Shown here one piece after another: positions 1 to 54,886 of a DNA stretch of 64,000 bases (its first letter is position 1; each line of letters starts with the position of its first letter). The translations under genes and the position numbers were made by a program. Location of the stretch: contig NC_014098.1 of NCBI RefSeq assembly GCF_000092905.1, positions 2,170,001 through 2,234,000 on the forward strand. The letters are read 5' to 3'. The DNA comes from Kyrpidia tusciae DSM 2912. GTDB taxonomy: Bacteria; Bacillota; Bacilli; Kyrpidiales; Kyrpidiaceae. The notes under the pieces are model-generated. The model was given only the letters and a program-made list of their open reading frames with translations. It did not search any database and had not been told where the DNA came from.

Positions 1-819
1 GTAGATCCGCCGGTGCACCCCCTGTTCCCCATATTCCTTGACAAACTCGGAAAACACGTCCATCTCCGCCGTGCCCTTTTCCCCAACGAGGCGAAGCTGA
101 AGCCCGCCCCAGGTGGGATATGACGCCGGCCTCGACCAGCTGGGATCGAGCCCGGCGATCCATCCCCTTGAAAATCTCAACTGCAAATGAGCGGCGTCCT
201 CCACTTCAATGTCCGGATGGAAAAGGGTGGCGGACCGGGCGAACACAGACTGGACCTCATCCCCGGTCATCCAGCGCAACAAATCGATCAGGTGGACGGC
301 GTGGTCCCAAATCGCCCCGCCTCCATACCCCTTCTGGGCGAACCAACCCCCGGGCATTTTTCCACAATTGGCCCCCACCGCAGCGACGAGGGTACCGAGG
401 GCTCCATTGTGCATCAGCGTTTTCAAGCGAAGGGCCGCCGGGCTAAAGCGAACGGCGAAGGCCACCGCCAAGACCCGCCCCAGCCGCTGGGCCCGGGCCG
501 CCAGATCCCGGGCCCGGCTCGCCGCCCCGGCCAAGGGCTTCTCGCACAGGACGTGTTTCCCCGCTCGCAGGGCGGCCAACACCACGGGGTAATGGCGGCT
601 GTTCTCCGCCGCCACCACCACGCCATCGCACCGCTCCAGCAGGCGATCGAGATCCGCCTCAAAGAGCACCCCGTGACGTTCCGCCAGATCCCGGCCGCGG
701 TGAAGGACGTGATCCCAGATCCCCACCAACTCCGCCCCGGGAAGCTGCCGAAGGGTGGAGACGTAAGTGTCCGCATGAACATGGGCCCCGGACAAAACGG
801 CCATCCGCACGGGATTCAT
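1..819 (-). CDS. Gfo/Idh/MocA-family oxidoreductase, 3' end beyond window
   Basis: The frame opens with ATG at 819-817 and stays open for 273 codons to the window edge, so the C-terminus is missing. The start reads MNPVRMAVLSGAHVHADTY and a CEKPLA motif follows about residue 95, the EKP signature of NAD(P)-dependent Gfo/Idh/MocA sugar or inositol dehydrogenases. The canonical N-terminal GxGxxG is poorly kept (LSGAHVH), which is seen in some subfamilies. The later WDHAVHLIDLLRWM stretch fits the substrate domain, where a His is usually catalytic. The ATG overlaps the TGA of the preceding gene (ATGA), so the two are translationally coupled and probably act together. The substrate cannot be told from sequence. 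Confidence 0.85.
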   Translation of the reverse strand, partial: MNPVRMAVLSGAHVHADTYVSTLRQLPGAELVGIWDHVLHRGRDLAERHGVLFEADLDRLLERCDGVVVAAENSRHYPVVLAALRAGKHVLCEKPLAGAASRARDLAARAQRLGRVLAVAFAVRFSPAALRLKTLMHNGALGTLVAAVGANCGKMPGGWFAQKGYGGGAIWDHAVHLIDLLRWMTGDEVQSVFARSATLFHPDIEVEDAAHLQLRFSRGWIAGLDPSWSRPASYPTWGGLQLRLVGEKGTAEMDVFSEFVKEYGEQGVHRRIY

Positions 820-50480: not shown

Positions 50481-50721
50481 CCAGCTTCTCCTTCAACCAG
50501 GATTCCGTTTCTTCCGCGCTCAAAAACCCTTGAGCCACCGCCTTACGGGCCTGTTCCCCCCACCAAGCATCATCCAAATCCTGTAGACGCTGGAATTCCT
50601 CGTAGGACAACAAGACCGCAACAGGTCGCCCGCTTTTCTCCACAAGCACCGGCTCCACTTTGAGCCCTTCAATCACTTCGCCAAACTTATGTCGAAGTTC
50701 CGTCGCCGTCAAAGTCTTCAC
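50449..50721 (-). CDS. Phd/YefM-family antitoxin
   Basis: A 90-residue antitoxin. The N-terminal Phd fold reads TLTATELRHKFGEVIEGLKV, followed by PVLVEKSGRPVAVLLSYEEF, and the C-terminal part is acidic and helical for toxin binding. The GTG start follows GGAGAG by about seven bases. No intact RelE/Doc toxin gene follows, so the pair looks orphaned. 50722-50891 holds nothing else that I recognise. Confidence 0.8.
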   Translation of the reverse strand: MKTLTATELRHKFGEVIEGLKVEPVLVEKSGRPVAVLLSYEEFQRLQDLDDAWWGEQARKAVAQGFLSAEETESWLKEKLDEADSGQGGA

Positions 50722-50891
50722 TTCGATCTCTCCTCACTGTTTATTTTAATTATTTCGTTCAAAATGTACACCCCAATCCACAGCTCCTTGACCCGCCGTG
50801 CTGCATTCAGTCCCGCCAGTCCTCTTCCAGTTCCCGGAGCAACTCCTCATGTCCGCACCACACGCCAGCAACAGGACGAATATCCTTCTTT

Positions 50892-51488
50892 AACCGCAAG
50901 GCCGTCCAGCGTCATATGCGGGAGATGGGGATTGCCGGCATCACTCCGGGTCCGGGTCTTCGCCGGCGCGTCCAGGCACACCGGGTGTATCCCTACCTGT
51001 TGCGCGGCTTGAAAATCGAGCGTCCGAACCACGTCTGGGGCATCGACATCACGTATATCCGCATGGCGCATGGTTGGATGTATCTGGTGGCGATCCTGGA
51101 CTGGTACTCCCGTTACGTGGTCAGCTACGAGCTGGATCAAACCCTGCATATGGATTTTGTTCTGAAGGCCTTGCATCGGGCCCTGCGGCAGTGGACGCCG
51201 GAGATCATGAATAGCGACCAGGGAAGTCGCTTTACCAGCCCGAAGTACACGGACGTACTGCTAAATCATGGGATTCGGATCAGCATGGACGGTCGGGGTC
51301 GAGCCCTGGACAACATCTTCACCGAGCGCCTGTGGCGGAGTCTGAAGCAGGAAGAGGTGTATCTTCACGACTACCGAACGCCGAAACAGGCTCGGGAAGG
51401 GATCGCCAGATACCTGGAGTTCTACAACCACACGCACCCGCACCAGTCCCTGGGATATGTGACGCCGGCCTCTGTGTTCGGGCTCTAG
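50892..51488 (+). pseudogene. IS3 OrfB transposase, N-terminally truncated
   Basis: Similarity begins at NRKAVQRHMREMGIAG and runs to the natural C-terminus (HTHPHQSLGYVTPASVF). The integrase core shows the first Asp in HVWGIDITYI, the second in IMNSDQGSRFTS and the Glu in NIFTERLWRSLKQEE, so the DDE triad survives. The N-terminal HTH region and orfA are absent, so it is not expected to transpose. Confidence 0.85.
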
Positions 51489-51623
51489 GGGGTGCACCCC
51501 CTCCAGAATGATCGAGGGATGATCCAGAAATGGAAAATGCGTCCGGTCCTCATATCCATATTCAGGAATCTCGACACACTTTAAAAAGGGCCAAAAAATG
51601 TCTTGACAATGGGGTCCACCTCA
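50892..51623 (+). mobile_element. IS3-family element, 5'-truncated
   Basis: It contains the 3' two-thirds of the orfB transposase gene and a right end near 51595-51623 whose sequence (TGTCTTGACAATGGGGTCCA) matches the style of IS3-family termini. The left end, orfA and the start of orfB are missing. The right end interrupts a DUF6431 gene. Confidence 0.7.
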
Positions 51624-51914
51624 ACTTTTTGCGTAAGGCGCCCAACCGGCGGACCAGTGCCGCCAGCGGCGCAACGTGGACTCTTCGACCCCGACAGGCT
51701 CAGCAGGCGGCTCACTCACCGCTGCTTCGATGCTGGAAGTCTCATGCCGCTTGTAAGGTACCAGGATGTCCGGCAGCTCGTGATGAATCCGCCTGCAACT
51801 CCCGCAACGAAGCCTGCGAATGATGAGCTGGATCTTCTCTCCCGAGGCCCGGACACATCCGCGACGCCGACTGCCAATGACGCCAAGCGCCCCCTCACAA
51901 CACGGGCAGGGCAC
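51624..51914 (-). pseudogene. DUF6431 protein, truncated by the IS3 end
   Basis: The GTG at 51914 opens PCPCCEGALGVIGSRRRG, and RRLRCGSCRRIHHELPDILV follows, the N-terminal zinc-ribbon region of DUF6431 proteins, which are associated with mobile elements. After about 90 codons the frame runs into the IS right end and stops. The C-terminal part is lost. Confidence 0.7.
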
Positions 51915-52001
51915 CGATTCCGCACTCCGAACAAAAAACCCCGTCTACACCTGTTTCAACGAGCTCAAAATCTGATACAATGATCACAGGTGATGATGAT
52001 T

Positions 52002-52058
52002 GGGTACCTCTGAGGATGCTGTTGACCGCAGTATCCTGATAGACAGAGGTACCCTTTT
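52002..52058 (+). other. Two-stem hairpin with T-tail, possible terminator or small RNA
   Basis: Perfect 11-base outer arms GGGTACCTCTG/CAGAGGTACCC enclose an inner stem AGGATGCTG/CAGTATCCT (one G-U pair) with a seven-base loop, and TTTT follows on the plus strand. A TACAAT at 51976-51981 lies about 20 bases upstream as a possible -10, which would make a transcript of about 70 bases that is almost only hairpin. It lies downstream of the GmrSD-type gene on the other strand. Unknown function. Confidence 0.55.
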
Positions 52059-52173
52059 CCTTTCCCAGACTTATGGATATTGTAACCGTCAATTTCTGGA
52101 TCGGCAATCCCGTCAGCATTCGGCCATTGTGGGATAGCGATAACAATTAAGGTTATCAAATCTTTCAAAGTAC

Positions 52174-54702
52174 TTACGAATGCATCTCATACGCCTGTTC
52201 CACCAACTCCATCACCTCCCCGAGTTTTTCGACAGTATCCAGACACACTTCCACATCGCCCGTCCCTCGATGTCCGATCCCCGACACGTCCCGCGCCAGG
52301 TTCCCCGGGTCGTCGAGGTCGGCGGGACGGATGTCCAAGTACAGCTTCAAGCGGTCTTTCTGAGGGACCACTTCCACGAAATTCGACGTGGTCCGGTAGG
52401 CGATGTATGTTTTTTTGTACTCCTCGCGGATGGAAGAATCCAACTGGAGAATCCGCGTCCGGAATTGTTCAAAAATCTCTTTGACCCGCCCTTTGAGGTG
52501 TTCGGCGTAATCGGCGTCCCGGTCTCCCTCTCTGGCTTCCAGCAATTCTGCCTCCAAATCTTCCTGGTGAAAACGCCGGTAGGTGCTCCCCTTCCACGAG
52601 GAAAAGGTCCGCCGGGCATGATCGACAGCTTCGTGCCATGCGCGCCGCACATCCTCCGGGAGGGCGCGAACTTTATCCCAGGACAGCGTCACCAATTCCC
52701 ACGTCCTCCCGGAGCTCCACCGCTCTGCGAACCGTTCCCGCTCCTCCGGGGAAATCCCGTCGAGGTTGCACGATTCGGCGCAGACGGTCAGCGACACCAG
52801 GAGCCTGTCGCCACTTCGGGAAAAGCGGAGCAACAGCCACTGGCCGACATTGACCGAAATTCGTCCGGGTCTGTAGGAGATGCTGAGAAGCCGGTCGACC
52901 GTTTCGTCGTCGAGCCGGGACACCAGTTCTTGAACCAACGCCCGGGCCGTTTCCAGATCGCCCTCCCGGGCAAAGACATCCTTCAACTTGACCCGGGGTT
53001 CCAAGCCGAACCCGAACCGCCGCAGATCCACATCGGGCCTCGGCCACACCTTGACGGCCAAGGCGGCAAGTTCCTCGGCCCGCGCGACGATCGCCGCCTC
53101 GTTCCAGGCATCCAAGCGGGCCAGCGAACGGTTGAGGCGCAATGGACTTTCTGCAAAGCCGCCTTTCATGTCGCGTTTTTCTCGAAAGGGACGGTCGCTT
53201 AACTCCGGATTGTAGCCGGTCAGGGTCAAATTGCCCAAGGTGTGAAGATATTGAGCTGAAATTTCCTTCCACCTTTCCCCCAATTCCTTCTTCCACTCAT
53301 CGGAAAGATTCGGATTTTGGGGCATAATGTGTTCAATGCTGTAGTTCTCCACCACAACCGGTTCCTTCCGGTCGAAGTTCTCCAGCTTCCTGAAAAAATA
53401 CATGCGGCTGCGGAAGTGGTAAAGATCCTTGATTTTCAATTGTTCCACAAATTCTTCGTCAGACGGAAAACGCCGGTACGACTCCTTGGTCAGGAGAGCG
53501 ATCTGAAGGCTTTCCAGATAGTTTTCTTTGTCCACCTCCCGAATCAGTTGAGCAAAGGTCGTGTTCAGGGAGTTGGTCGGAATTCCGCATACAGCCCGGC
53601 GAAAGACGTAACTCTCCACCCACTGGAGGACCCGGCACAATTCCTCCAAGGTCAGAAGCTGCCGGTCATAGTCTTCAAACGCGGCCATCAGCAAGGGATA
53701 GGCCACATCGACCCTCAACTGGCGAATATCCGACAACAGAGAACGAAGTTGAGGATTGTCCACCGTTTGCGGTGCAATCAAGTACAGATAATAGCGCGAG
53801 TAGTGGTGCAGCTCTTGTAAGATATCCGTGACCGTCGCGCCGCTTTGACGGTGCCAATTCTTGAAGAATTCATACACCCCGCCGATCTTGGGAATGACGC
53901 CCGTCTTGACCGTCAGAAAATCCCGAATGAACCGATCGAACGTCCCATCCTCATCATGTAGAATGAACCGCTGTTCCATCGGATACCAGTACCGCTCGTA
54001 AAGGGCCTCCTGCTCGTTCGCTTCAAGTCCCATGAGGATGTAGTTGCGGATCAGGTCCGTCTGGGACAGGTCCAGCCCGGTGGAATTCAGGCTCTCGAAG
54101 ATCAACTGGGGATTGTCGTGTTCCCGGTCCAGGGCGATGTCCACGATGAACAGCCGGCTGATACCGTCGAACACCGTCTGCGGCTCGATGGAACCCTTCT
54201 CGAGTTGGTCGCGAAAATACGCATAGTTTTCTTTGATTCTCTCCGAAGCCTCCCGGGGAAGCTCCCGATATTCAAGCACGGCTTTCAAGGTATCCCGGTC
54301 GCGACGGGTCAGCAGAAGCTTATAGCGCATCTCGCCTTCCTCTTCGCTGTTGAACAGATAATAATGGCGAATTCTTCTGGGGTTCACTTCTGCCGACGCG
54401 CCCGAGGCTTCGACCACGTCAGCCAATGCCGCCAGCAACAGGGTAATCGAGGTCAGTCGTTGTTGGCCGTCGATGACCATCAATCGCGGAACCGAGGAAA
54501 CGTGGTACAGGCCCCGTTCAACATAGACGACAGATCCCAGAAAATGGCCTCCCATGCCCGGATGCTTTCCCACCTGGACAATATCCTGCCACAATTGTTC
54601 GCACTGCCGGCGGGTCCAACTATAATTTCTCTGAAAGATCGGAACCACGAATTGCTTCGGCCCCTGCAAAAAGGCCAAGAGATTCGCTTCTTGGGCTTTC
54701 AC
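52174..54702 (-). CDS. GmrSD-type restriction protein (DUF262-DUF1524) with C-terminal DUF5655-like domain
   Basis: An 842-residue single-chain type IV restriction homologue. The N-terminal DUF262 (about 1-230) has LQGPKQFVVPIFQRNYSWTR and MVIDGQQRLTSITLLLAALA (the DGQQR motif). DUF1524 (about 440-560) has the HNH-like NYSIEHIMPQNPNLSD and LHTLGNLTLTGYNPELSD. The last 100 residues resemble DUF5655 (TYIAYRTTSNFVEVV). GmrSD enzymes cut glucosylated or otherwise modified phage DNA using NTP. I chose the GTG at 54702, where family members begin; AGGGGGTG lies about ten bases upstream. Confidence 0.85.
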   Translation of the reverse strand: MKAQEANLLAFLQGPKQFVVPIFQRNYSWTRRQCEQLWQDIVQVGKHPGMGGHFLGSVVYVERGLYHVSSVPRLMVIDGQQRLTSITLLLAALADVVEASGASAEVNPRRIRHYYLFNSEEEGEMRYKLLLTRRDRDTLKAVLEYRELPREASERIKENYAYFRDQLEKGSIEPQTVFDGISRLFIVDIALDREHDNPQLIFESLNSTGLDLSQTDLIRNYILMGLEANEQEALYERYWYPMEQRFILHDEDGTFDRFIRDFLTVKTGVIPKIGGVYEFFKNWHRQSGATVTDILQELHHYSRYYLYLIAPQTVDNPQLRSLLSDIRQLRVDVAYPLLMAAFEDYDRQLLTLEELCRVLQWVESYVFRRAVCGIPTNSLNTTFAQLIREVDKENYLESLQIALLTKESYRRFPSDEEFVEQLKIKDLYHFRSRMYFFRKLENFDRKEPVVVENYSIEHIMPQNPNLSDEWKKELGERWKEISAQYLHTLGNLTLTGYNPELSDRPFREKRDMKGGFAESPLRLNRSLARLDAWNEAAIVARAEELAALAVKVWPRPDVDLRRFGFGLEPRVKLKDVFAREGDLETARALVQELVSRLDDETVDRLLSISYRPGRISVNVGQWLLLRFSRSGDRLLVSLTVCAESCNLDGISPEERERFAERWSSGRTWELVTLSWDKVRALPEDVRRAWHEAVDHARRTFSSWKGSTYRRFHQEDLEAELLEAREGDRDADYAEHLKGRVKEIFEQFRTRILQLDSSIREEYKKTYIAYRTTSNFVEVVPQKDRLKLYLDIRPADLDDPGNLARDVSGIGHRGTGDVEVCLDTVEKLGEVMELVEQAYEMHS

Positions 54703-54886
54703 CGCAAAAGACACCCCCTGATGACCGCTTTGCAGCAAAAGTGTACACCGGTTGCGCATCATGTTCCAGAGCGGACGCGTAAAGGTAGGGTAAGCAAGCA
54801 GGATTTAGCCCTGCCCAAAATAGAAGAAGGTCTCGCCTACCGAACATTGACACGCACCCAGGCGATTGCTCGGGTTAACTGAGTCC

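Follow-up and report, generated by a model that had tools for sequence, protein, structure and literature searches.

The locus considered here raises the question of what a long, nearly perfect hairpin does in a part of the Kyrpidia tusciae DSM 2912 genome where it seemed to belong to no gene. The hairpin lies at 52002–52054 of the window, i.e., of the whole stretch of 64,000 nucleotides that was analysed (contig NC_014098.1, positions 2,170,001 to 2,234,000, forward strand). Its outer stem is formed by GGGTACCTCTG (52002–52012) and CAGAGGTACCC (52044–52054), 11 bp with 100% complementarity according to the repeat finder. The inner arms, AGGATGCTG (52013–52021) and CAGTATCCT (52029–52037), form nine pairs, including a G-U pair on the plus strand, and a tenth pair is added by the predicted fold of 51988–52063. 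The two stems are separated by a one-sided bulge of six bases, GATAGA (52038–52043). This structure of 53 bases, with 11-base outer and nine-base inner arms, had been reported in a preliminary description of the locus, and it is confirmed by the sequence, the repeat finder and folding. The T-tail and the TACAAT about 20 bases upstream, mentioned in the same description, are present as well: the CC-interrupted tract TTTTCCTTT (52055–52063) directly follows the hairpin on the plus strand, and TACAAT occupies 51976–51981, 20 bases 5' of it.

Both strands of the region fold significantly. The plus strand of 51960–52075 reaches −38.9 kcal/mol (z = −4.2), and the stretch 51988–52063, which corresponds to the predicted transcript discussed below, reaches −34.1 kcal/mol (z = −5.8; 0 of 200 shuffles as good). 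The opposite strand (52072–51985) gives −29.3 kcal/mol (z = −3.1; 1 of 200 shuffles as good). The 53-base hairpin by itself folds at −32.9 kcal/mol on the plus strand and −26.4 kcal/mol on the minus strand.

The preliminary description held that no gene explained the hairpin. This does not stand, as the hairpin directly precedes the start of a DUF6431 gene of a transposon on the other strand. A fragment of this gene is found at 51631–51914 on the minus strand (Pfam match at 51663–51908, 99.8 bits, G000:C1:2221663-2221908). It is part of a transposon fragment (51631–52145, minus strand), delimited by comparison of copies and with an intact relative, whose outer end, reading TGTTAT... on the minus strand, is at 52145 and whose inner part is missing. 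The hairpin is thus located within the terminal 230 bp or so of the transposon. The fragment stops at 51631, where its truncated inner end adjoins an IS3-family transposase remnant (50916–51488, plus strand), and the transposase and ATPase genes of the transposon are absent from it. On the outer side lies a GmrSD-type gene (52174–54762, minus strand) with GmrSD_N, GmrSD_C and a C-terminal DUF5655; its stop codon and the outer end of the transposon (52145) are 28 bases apart.

A search for other copies, proposed in the preliminary description, was carried out as a homology search of the own genome (one contig, 3,384,766 bases). It returned seven further stretches with E ≤ 3e-6. Four of them span the whole hairpin, with identities of 99% (L002), 97% (L003), 96% (L004) and 88% (L006) over it; L005 covers nearly all of it, stopping at 52051, and L007 and L008 are partial. 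Homology among the copies reaches 52145–52147 outward and, in the longest cases, 51630–51631 inward. Covariance model R1, described below, matches six places in the same genome. The hairpin could be considered a miniature element of its own, but this was ruled out because homology is not confined to it and extends across the end of the transposon and its DUF6431 gene; of the suggested decayed miniature element there remains a transposon end that is decayed in the window. A unique small RNA of the GmrSD gene was also ruled out, by the copies elsewhere in the genome and by the copies of other species, which stand before DUF6431 genes.

Some of the copies are rearranged at the hairpin itself. At L007/L045 (own genome near 877700) positions 52004–52086, comprising the hairpin and the −10 region of the transposase promoter pIN, are exactly missing and both flanks are kept. 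Breaks at 52051–52053 (window numbering), at the foot of the hairpin, are seen in L005 (near 793192), L008 (2340722) and L019 of relative G001; from these three broken copies the hairpin foot is a possible insertion hot spot.

Intact relatives of the transposon are represented by L063 and L064, copies of 3,016 bp that are 99.8% identical. Their ends, TGTAACAG and TGTTACTA, carry repeated TTGACGG and TGACC motifs. The gene order is DUF6431, a transposase with rve and Mu-transpos_C domains, and an AAA ATPase with a TniB match; the domains found in L063 (PF00665, PF09299, PF13401 and PF05621) are those of a DDE transposase with Mu-transpos_C and of a TniB-type ATPase. A 6-bp duplication, CCTATT, flanks L063 on both sides, and no flanking duplication was seen at L064. 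NCBIfam matches of the transposase are all below the cut-offs, the best being IS481 (180 bits vs 224). The element resembles TniA/TniB-type transposons in its rve core and Mu C-terminal transposase, its AAA/TniB ATPase and its TGT ends with repeated motifs, but differs from them in the extra first gene, DUF6431. An Rfam match to BsrG (L063 230–519, minus strand, 74.4 bits vs a cut-off of 55) adjoins, and just overlaps, the end of the intact element. In K. tusciae the transposon family looks decayed, judging from the sequence, since the best transposase match in the genome covers only residues 4–260 of 452.

DUF6431 was found in 44 of 299 genomes of the class. Of 218 relatives, the best 80 were used to follow the hairpin; they are DUF6431 loci of Bacillota, from Alicyclobacillus, Paenibacillus, Cohnella, Syntrophomonas, Sporolactobacillus, Desulfosporosinus and others. 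R1, which was built from the 45-row alignment A3, detects the motif in 78 of these loci, upstream of DUF6431 and on the strand opposite to it; part of the 80 loci served to train the model. The two loci without a match are L137 and L147, the latter having only 10 bases before its DUF6431 match. Across the phylum, R1 matches 21 of 299 genomes (E ≤ 0.001), K. tusciae included, and a DUF6431 profile match is present at 20 of the 30 loci fetched from this search. Eight of the ten remaining loci were inspected: L160 is a truncated copy, L164 and L168 lie at contig ends with the leader frame visible, and L166, L171, L178, L179 and L180 are R1 matches lacking DUF6431, either chance matches or remnants. 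A hairpin before the start was not seen by eye in the more distant DUF6431 loci L054, L055 and L058.

The covariation check in relatives, likewise proposed beforehand, supports a conserved structure. The set of 75 regions was reduced to 60, and removal by hand of 15 with unusual length or shape left 45 rows. In these 45 sequences pairing is kept in 91.5% of the cells of the 20 pairs, none of which is invariant, and 16 of the 20 pairs show changes on both sides. Such changes occur in 120 cells as against 40.3 (sd 6.1) in shuffles, counts that are inflated by the relatedness of the sequences. None of the 500 shuffles attains any of the five covariation measures, again for 45 sequences whose cells are not independent because the sequences are related. 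When one arm is slid by 1–3 columns, the paired cells fall to 33–56%. RNAalifold predicts 16 of the 20 pairs, 14 of them with double changes. The outer-stem arm may serve as an illustration: the window has GGGTACCTCTG, L016 has GGATGCTTCC and L017 has GACGTCTCT, with pairing preserved. The loop is partly conserved and CTGTTGGCGCAG-like in many alignment rows. In Sporolactobacillus (L126, L128, L136, L142, L145 and L149) a second long palindrome is situated between pIN and the Shine-Dalgarno tract; it consists of the −10 region and its inverse, e.g., GCCAGCTATAATGTCC...GGAC.TTATAGCTGGC.

The strand on which the structure is selected could be judged from folding and from G-U pairs. Upstream regions numbered 111, of which 100 had the start pattern and 77 remained after removal of those that were short or more than 90% alike. 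Strand folds were counted in 76 non-redundant hairpins, with L045 left out (hairpin deleted), L109 kept (shortened hairpin, arms misassigned by the script) and the 15 regions left out of the covariation alignment also kept. The antisense strand (plus in the window) folds better in 64 of the 76 and the sense strand in 12 (Wilcoxon p = 2e-10), with mean energies of −26.7 and −22.1 kcal/mol, respectively. In the outer stem without its two edge columns, the antisense strand has 36 G-U cells vs one A-C cell (p = 1e-5 against a shuffled-column G-U share of 0.68, cells treated as independent); among the 23 less similar rows the ratio is 15 to 1. The inner stem is without strand bias (16 G-U, 12 A-C, p = 0.73), and both stems pooled give 52 G-U vs 13 A-C (p = 0.009). 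An earlier count of 142 A-C vs 11 G-U takes in stem-edge columns and is not relied on. Given the outer-stem bias and the better antisense fold, selection appears to act on an RNA, mainly on the antisense strand and mainly via the outer stem. The unbiased inner stem, the 12 of 76 hairpins that fold better in the sense direction and the significant sense fold are points against the antisense reading.

Sequence elements around the hairpin suggest where such an RNA would begin and end. An extended −10 box, TGATACAAT (51973–51981, plus strand), conserved in 70–73 of 74 regions, is the putative antisense promoter pOUT, with a predicted start at about 51988. The counts for this box and for the codons it covers refer to 74 regions (L045, L056 and L109 excluded). 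The nine bases complementary to leader codons 3–5 are TGATACAAT in 36 of the 74, TGATATAAT in 10 and TGTTACAAT in 5, the rest being similar. TAnnnT is present in 73 of the 74, TG at the extended position in 70, and the seventh base past the box, where the start is predicted, is a purine in all 74. Codon usage follows the box: valine is encoded by GTA in 46 of 47 cases at codon 4 vs 3 of 52 at codon 2, and isoleucine by ATA in 17 of 18 cases at codon 4 vs 2 of 70 at codon 3 (the starts of L113 and L120, misassigned in these codon counts, were corrected for the −10 box counts). Judged by these frequencies, there is synonymous constraint at the −10 box codons, whereas synonyms vary freely in neighbouring codons. 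The T-rich tract 3' of the hairpin occurs on the antisense strand at the same place in 45 alignment rows and could form the putative end of the RNA. A simple promoter scan, which requires a −35 box, makes no call on the plus strand, and neither does a simple terminator scan; the stem is long and the T tract CC-interrupted. From strand folding, the T-rich tract, the −10 box and the G-U bias together, a putative antisense RNA of about 70–75 nt with predicted ends at 51988 and 52062 (plus strand) is proposed.

On the minus strand, the promoter scan calls the putative transposase promoter pIN at 52107–52079 (TTGCCG, 17 nt, TACAAT; one match vs a shuffle average of 0.4), with a predicted mRNA start at about 52072. 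The pattern TTGnCn-16..18-TAnnnT is present in 55 of 73 relatives. In the 55 loci with this pattern, pIN and pOUT share a mean of 10.2 of 13 bases between −10 and +1; the hairpin is therefore flanked by two facing, near-identical putative promoters. The likeness may instead reflect a shared protein-binding site, and the conservation of pOUT could be due in part to a protein-binding repeat. From its start near 52072 the predicted mRNA would first carry the Shine-Dalgarno-like tract GGGAAAGGA (52066–52058, minus strand), which in 58 of 74 relatives comprises at least AAAGGA; the hairpin would follow, and after it the GTG start codon (51987–51985). By position, complementarity between the predicted RNA and the mRNA extends from the base immediately preceding the start codon into the Shine-Dalgarno tract, part of which is included, so that the RNA would cover the initiation region.

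The GTG codon opens a leader reading frame (VIIVSDFELVETGVDGVFCSECGIGALPVL; 51895–51987, minus strand), recognized in the sequence and in relatives, that overlaps the DUF6431 start in another frame. In 69 of the 74 regions the leader and DUF6431 frames are offset by one base, and in 48 of the 74 the leader runs into a stop (codons 18–26, commonly at GTTTTTTGTTAG) ahead of the cysteine motif of DUF6431. The start is in frame in the more distant DUF6431 loci L054–L056 and L058. A programmed +1 frameshift, for which GTTTTTTG (51932–51939, minus strand) was proposed from the 74 regions as a candidate site, could join the two frames within the first gene of the transposon. A leader peptide reading through the hairpin was considered as well and rejected: start codons exist inside some hairpins, but their frames and stops vary.

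The hairpin is probably the body of a cis-encoded antisense RNA of about 70 nt, which would repress the first gene of a DUF6431/DDE/TniB-type transposon. Transcription would start at the extended −10 promoter within the first codons of this gene, proceed outward across both stems of the hairpin and stop at the U tract. Its product would pair with the mRNA over the interval between the Shine-Dalgarno sequence and the base adjoining the start codon, both included, and block ribosome entry, keeping transposition proteins low, increasingly so at higher copy number, as IS10 RNA-OUT does. The window copy is an orphan: it lacks a transposase, and any RNA made from it could act only in trans. As to the readings of the preliminary description, a small structured RNA with its outer stem conserved on the plus strand agrees with this explanation, but no link to the nearby GmrSD-type gene is apparent, as in relatives the motif accompanies DUF6431 genes; the form of a terminator is indeed present on the plus strand, but a small RNA is the better reading than the end of an untraced transcript.

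Alternatively, the hairpin could act within the sense mRNA, folding into a spacer that parts the Shine-Dalgarno tract from the start codon and sets the translation rate, the antisense features being by-products. Its position between an AAAGGA-type tract and the start codon and the fold of the sense strand agree with such a role; nevertheless, the G-U pairs of the antisense outer stem are A-C mismatches in the mRNA (36 vs 1), the sense fold is the weaker one in 64 of 76 hairpins, and the −10 box within the codons is left unexplained, so that this explanation is unlikely. A function as a terminator only, stopping antisense-strand transcription out of or into the element and leaving the RNA without a pairing function, could account for the antisense-strand stem and the T-rich tract behind it in the 45-row alignment. 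Neither an inner stem kept in shape with a one-sided bulge nor a dedicated −10 box about 20 bases upstream would be needed by a terminator, however, and the simple scan does not call one; we consider this explanation rather improbable.

At the DNA level, transposition proteins could recognize the hairpin together with the inverted repeats made by the shared −10 to +1 sequences, which are alike in pIN and pOUT and resemble the motifs repeated at the ends of the element. This is quite improbable, since stem sequences vary among relatives with pairing kept, and the G-U asymmetry is expected of RNA, not of duplex DNA. A role of the RNA in transposition itself, with the DUF6431 protein or the ATPase binding it as a cofactor, is very improbable: structural conservation is strong, the loop is partly conserved and the neighbouring protein carries a domain of unknown function, but a function is already suggested by the complementarity of the RNA to the initiation region. 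A broader and improbable combination would be a two-way module, in which near-identical promoters face each other across the hairpin, giving mRNA on one strand and structured antisense RNA on the other; the U tail, hairpin and 5' end of the RNA would overlay the Shine-Dalgarno tract, the spacer and the start-codon edge, and the first gene would be read only via the +1 frameshift; the DUF6431 protein may be a binding partner of the RNA, which may serve transposition, and orphans may act in trans.

Rfam holds an RNA-OUT model, and cmscan against Rfam 15 gave no RNA-OUT match in window positions 50500–53500 or in ten relatives. In the window there was no credible Rfam match at all (four matches with E 0.15–4.5, all far below gathering scores), and in the ten relatives none over the motif. 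IS10 RNA-OUT is a 69-nt RNA that base-pairs with the transposase mRNA where translation is initiated and keeps ribosomes from binding, the more so the higher the copy number (PMC5006887). The RNA proposed here is similar in being a small RNA (predicted, 70–75 nt) opposite a transposase mRNA, with complementarity to the initiation region and facing putative promoters pIN and pOUT, and by this analogy it should repress the transposon's first gene. It differs in the type of transposon and host group and in its two stems with a bulge and T tract; the function of IS10 RNA-OUT was demonstrated by experiment, whereas here it is proposed from sequence.

IS200 produces an antisense transcript, art200, and translation of its tnpA is limited by a stem-loop in the leader (PMC12594629). 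An antisense transcript, predicted in the present case, at the leader of a transposon gene with a stem-loop is common to both. In IS200 the stem-loop of the mRNA leader sequesters the ribosome-binding site; here, in contrast, it is on the antisense strand that the outer stem is conserved, and this stem does not include the Shine-Dalgarno tract (homology to art200 was compared via Rfam only).

Antisense control of transposases has thus been described for IS10 and IS200 (PMC5006887, PMC12594629), and the principle is established. Among the open-access papers searched, DUF6431 occurs in one, and the titles and abstract openings gave no description of the present RNA; an antisense RNA with a covarying structure would be a novelty for this group of transposons. 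If the proposed explanation is true, a structured antisense RNA without a match in the Rfam searches made would be added in a transposon group that extends across Bacillota. Its direct predictions would be the start site, an end at the U tract and multicopy inhibition. Orphan hairpins such as that of K. tusciae would become annotated features, and a +1 frameshift in the first gene of the transposon would be indicated.
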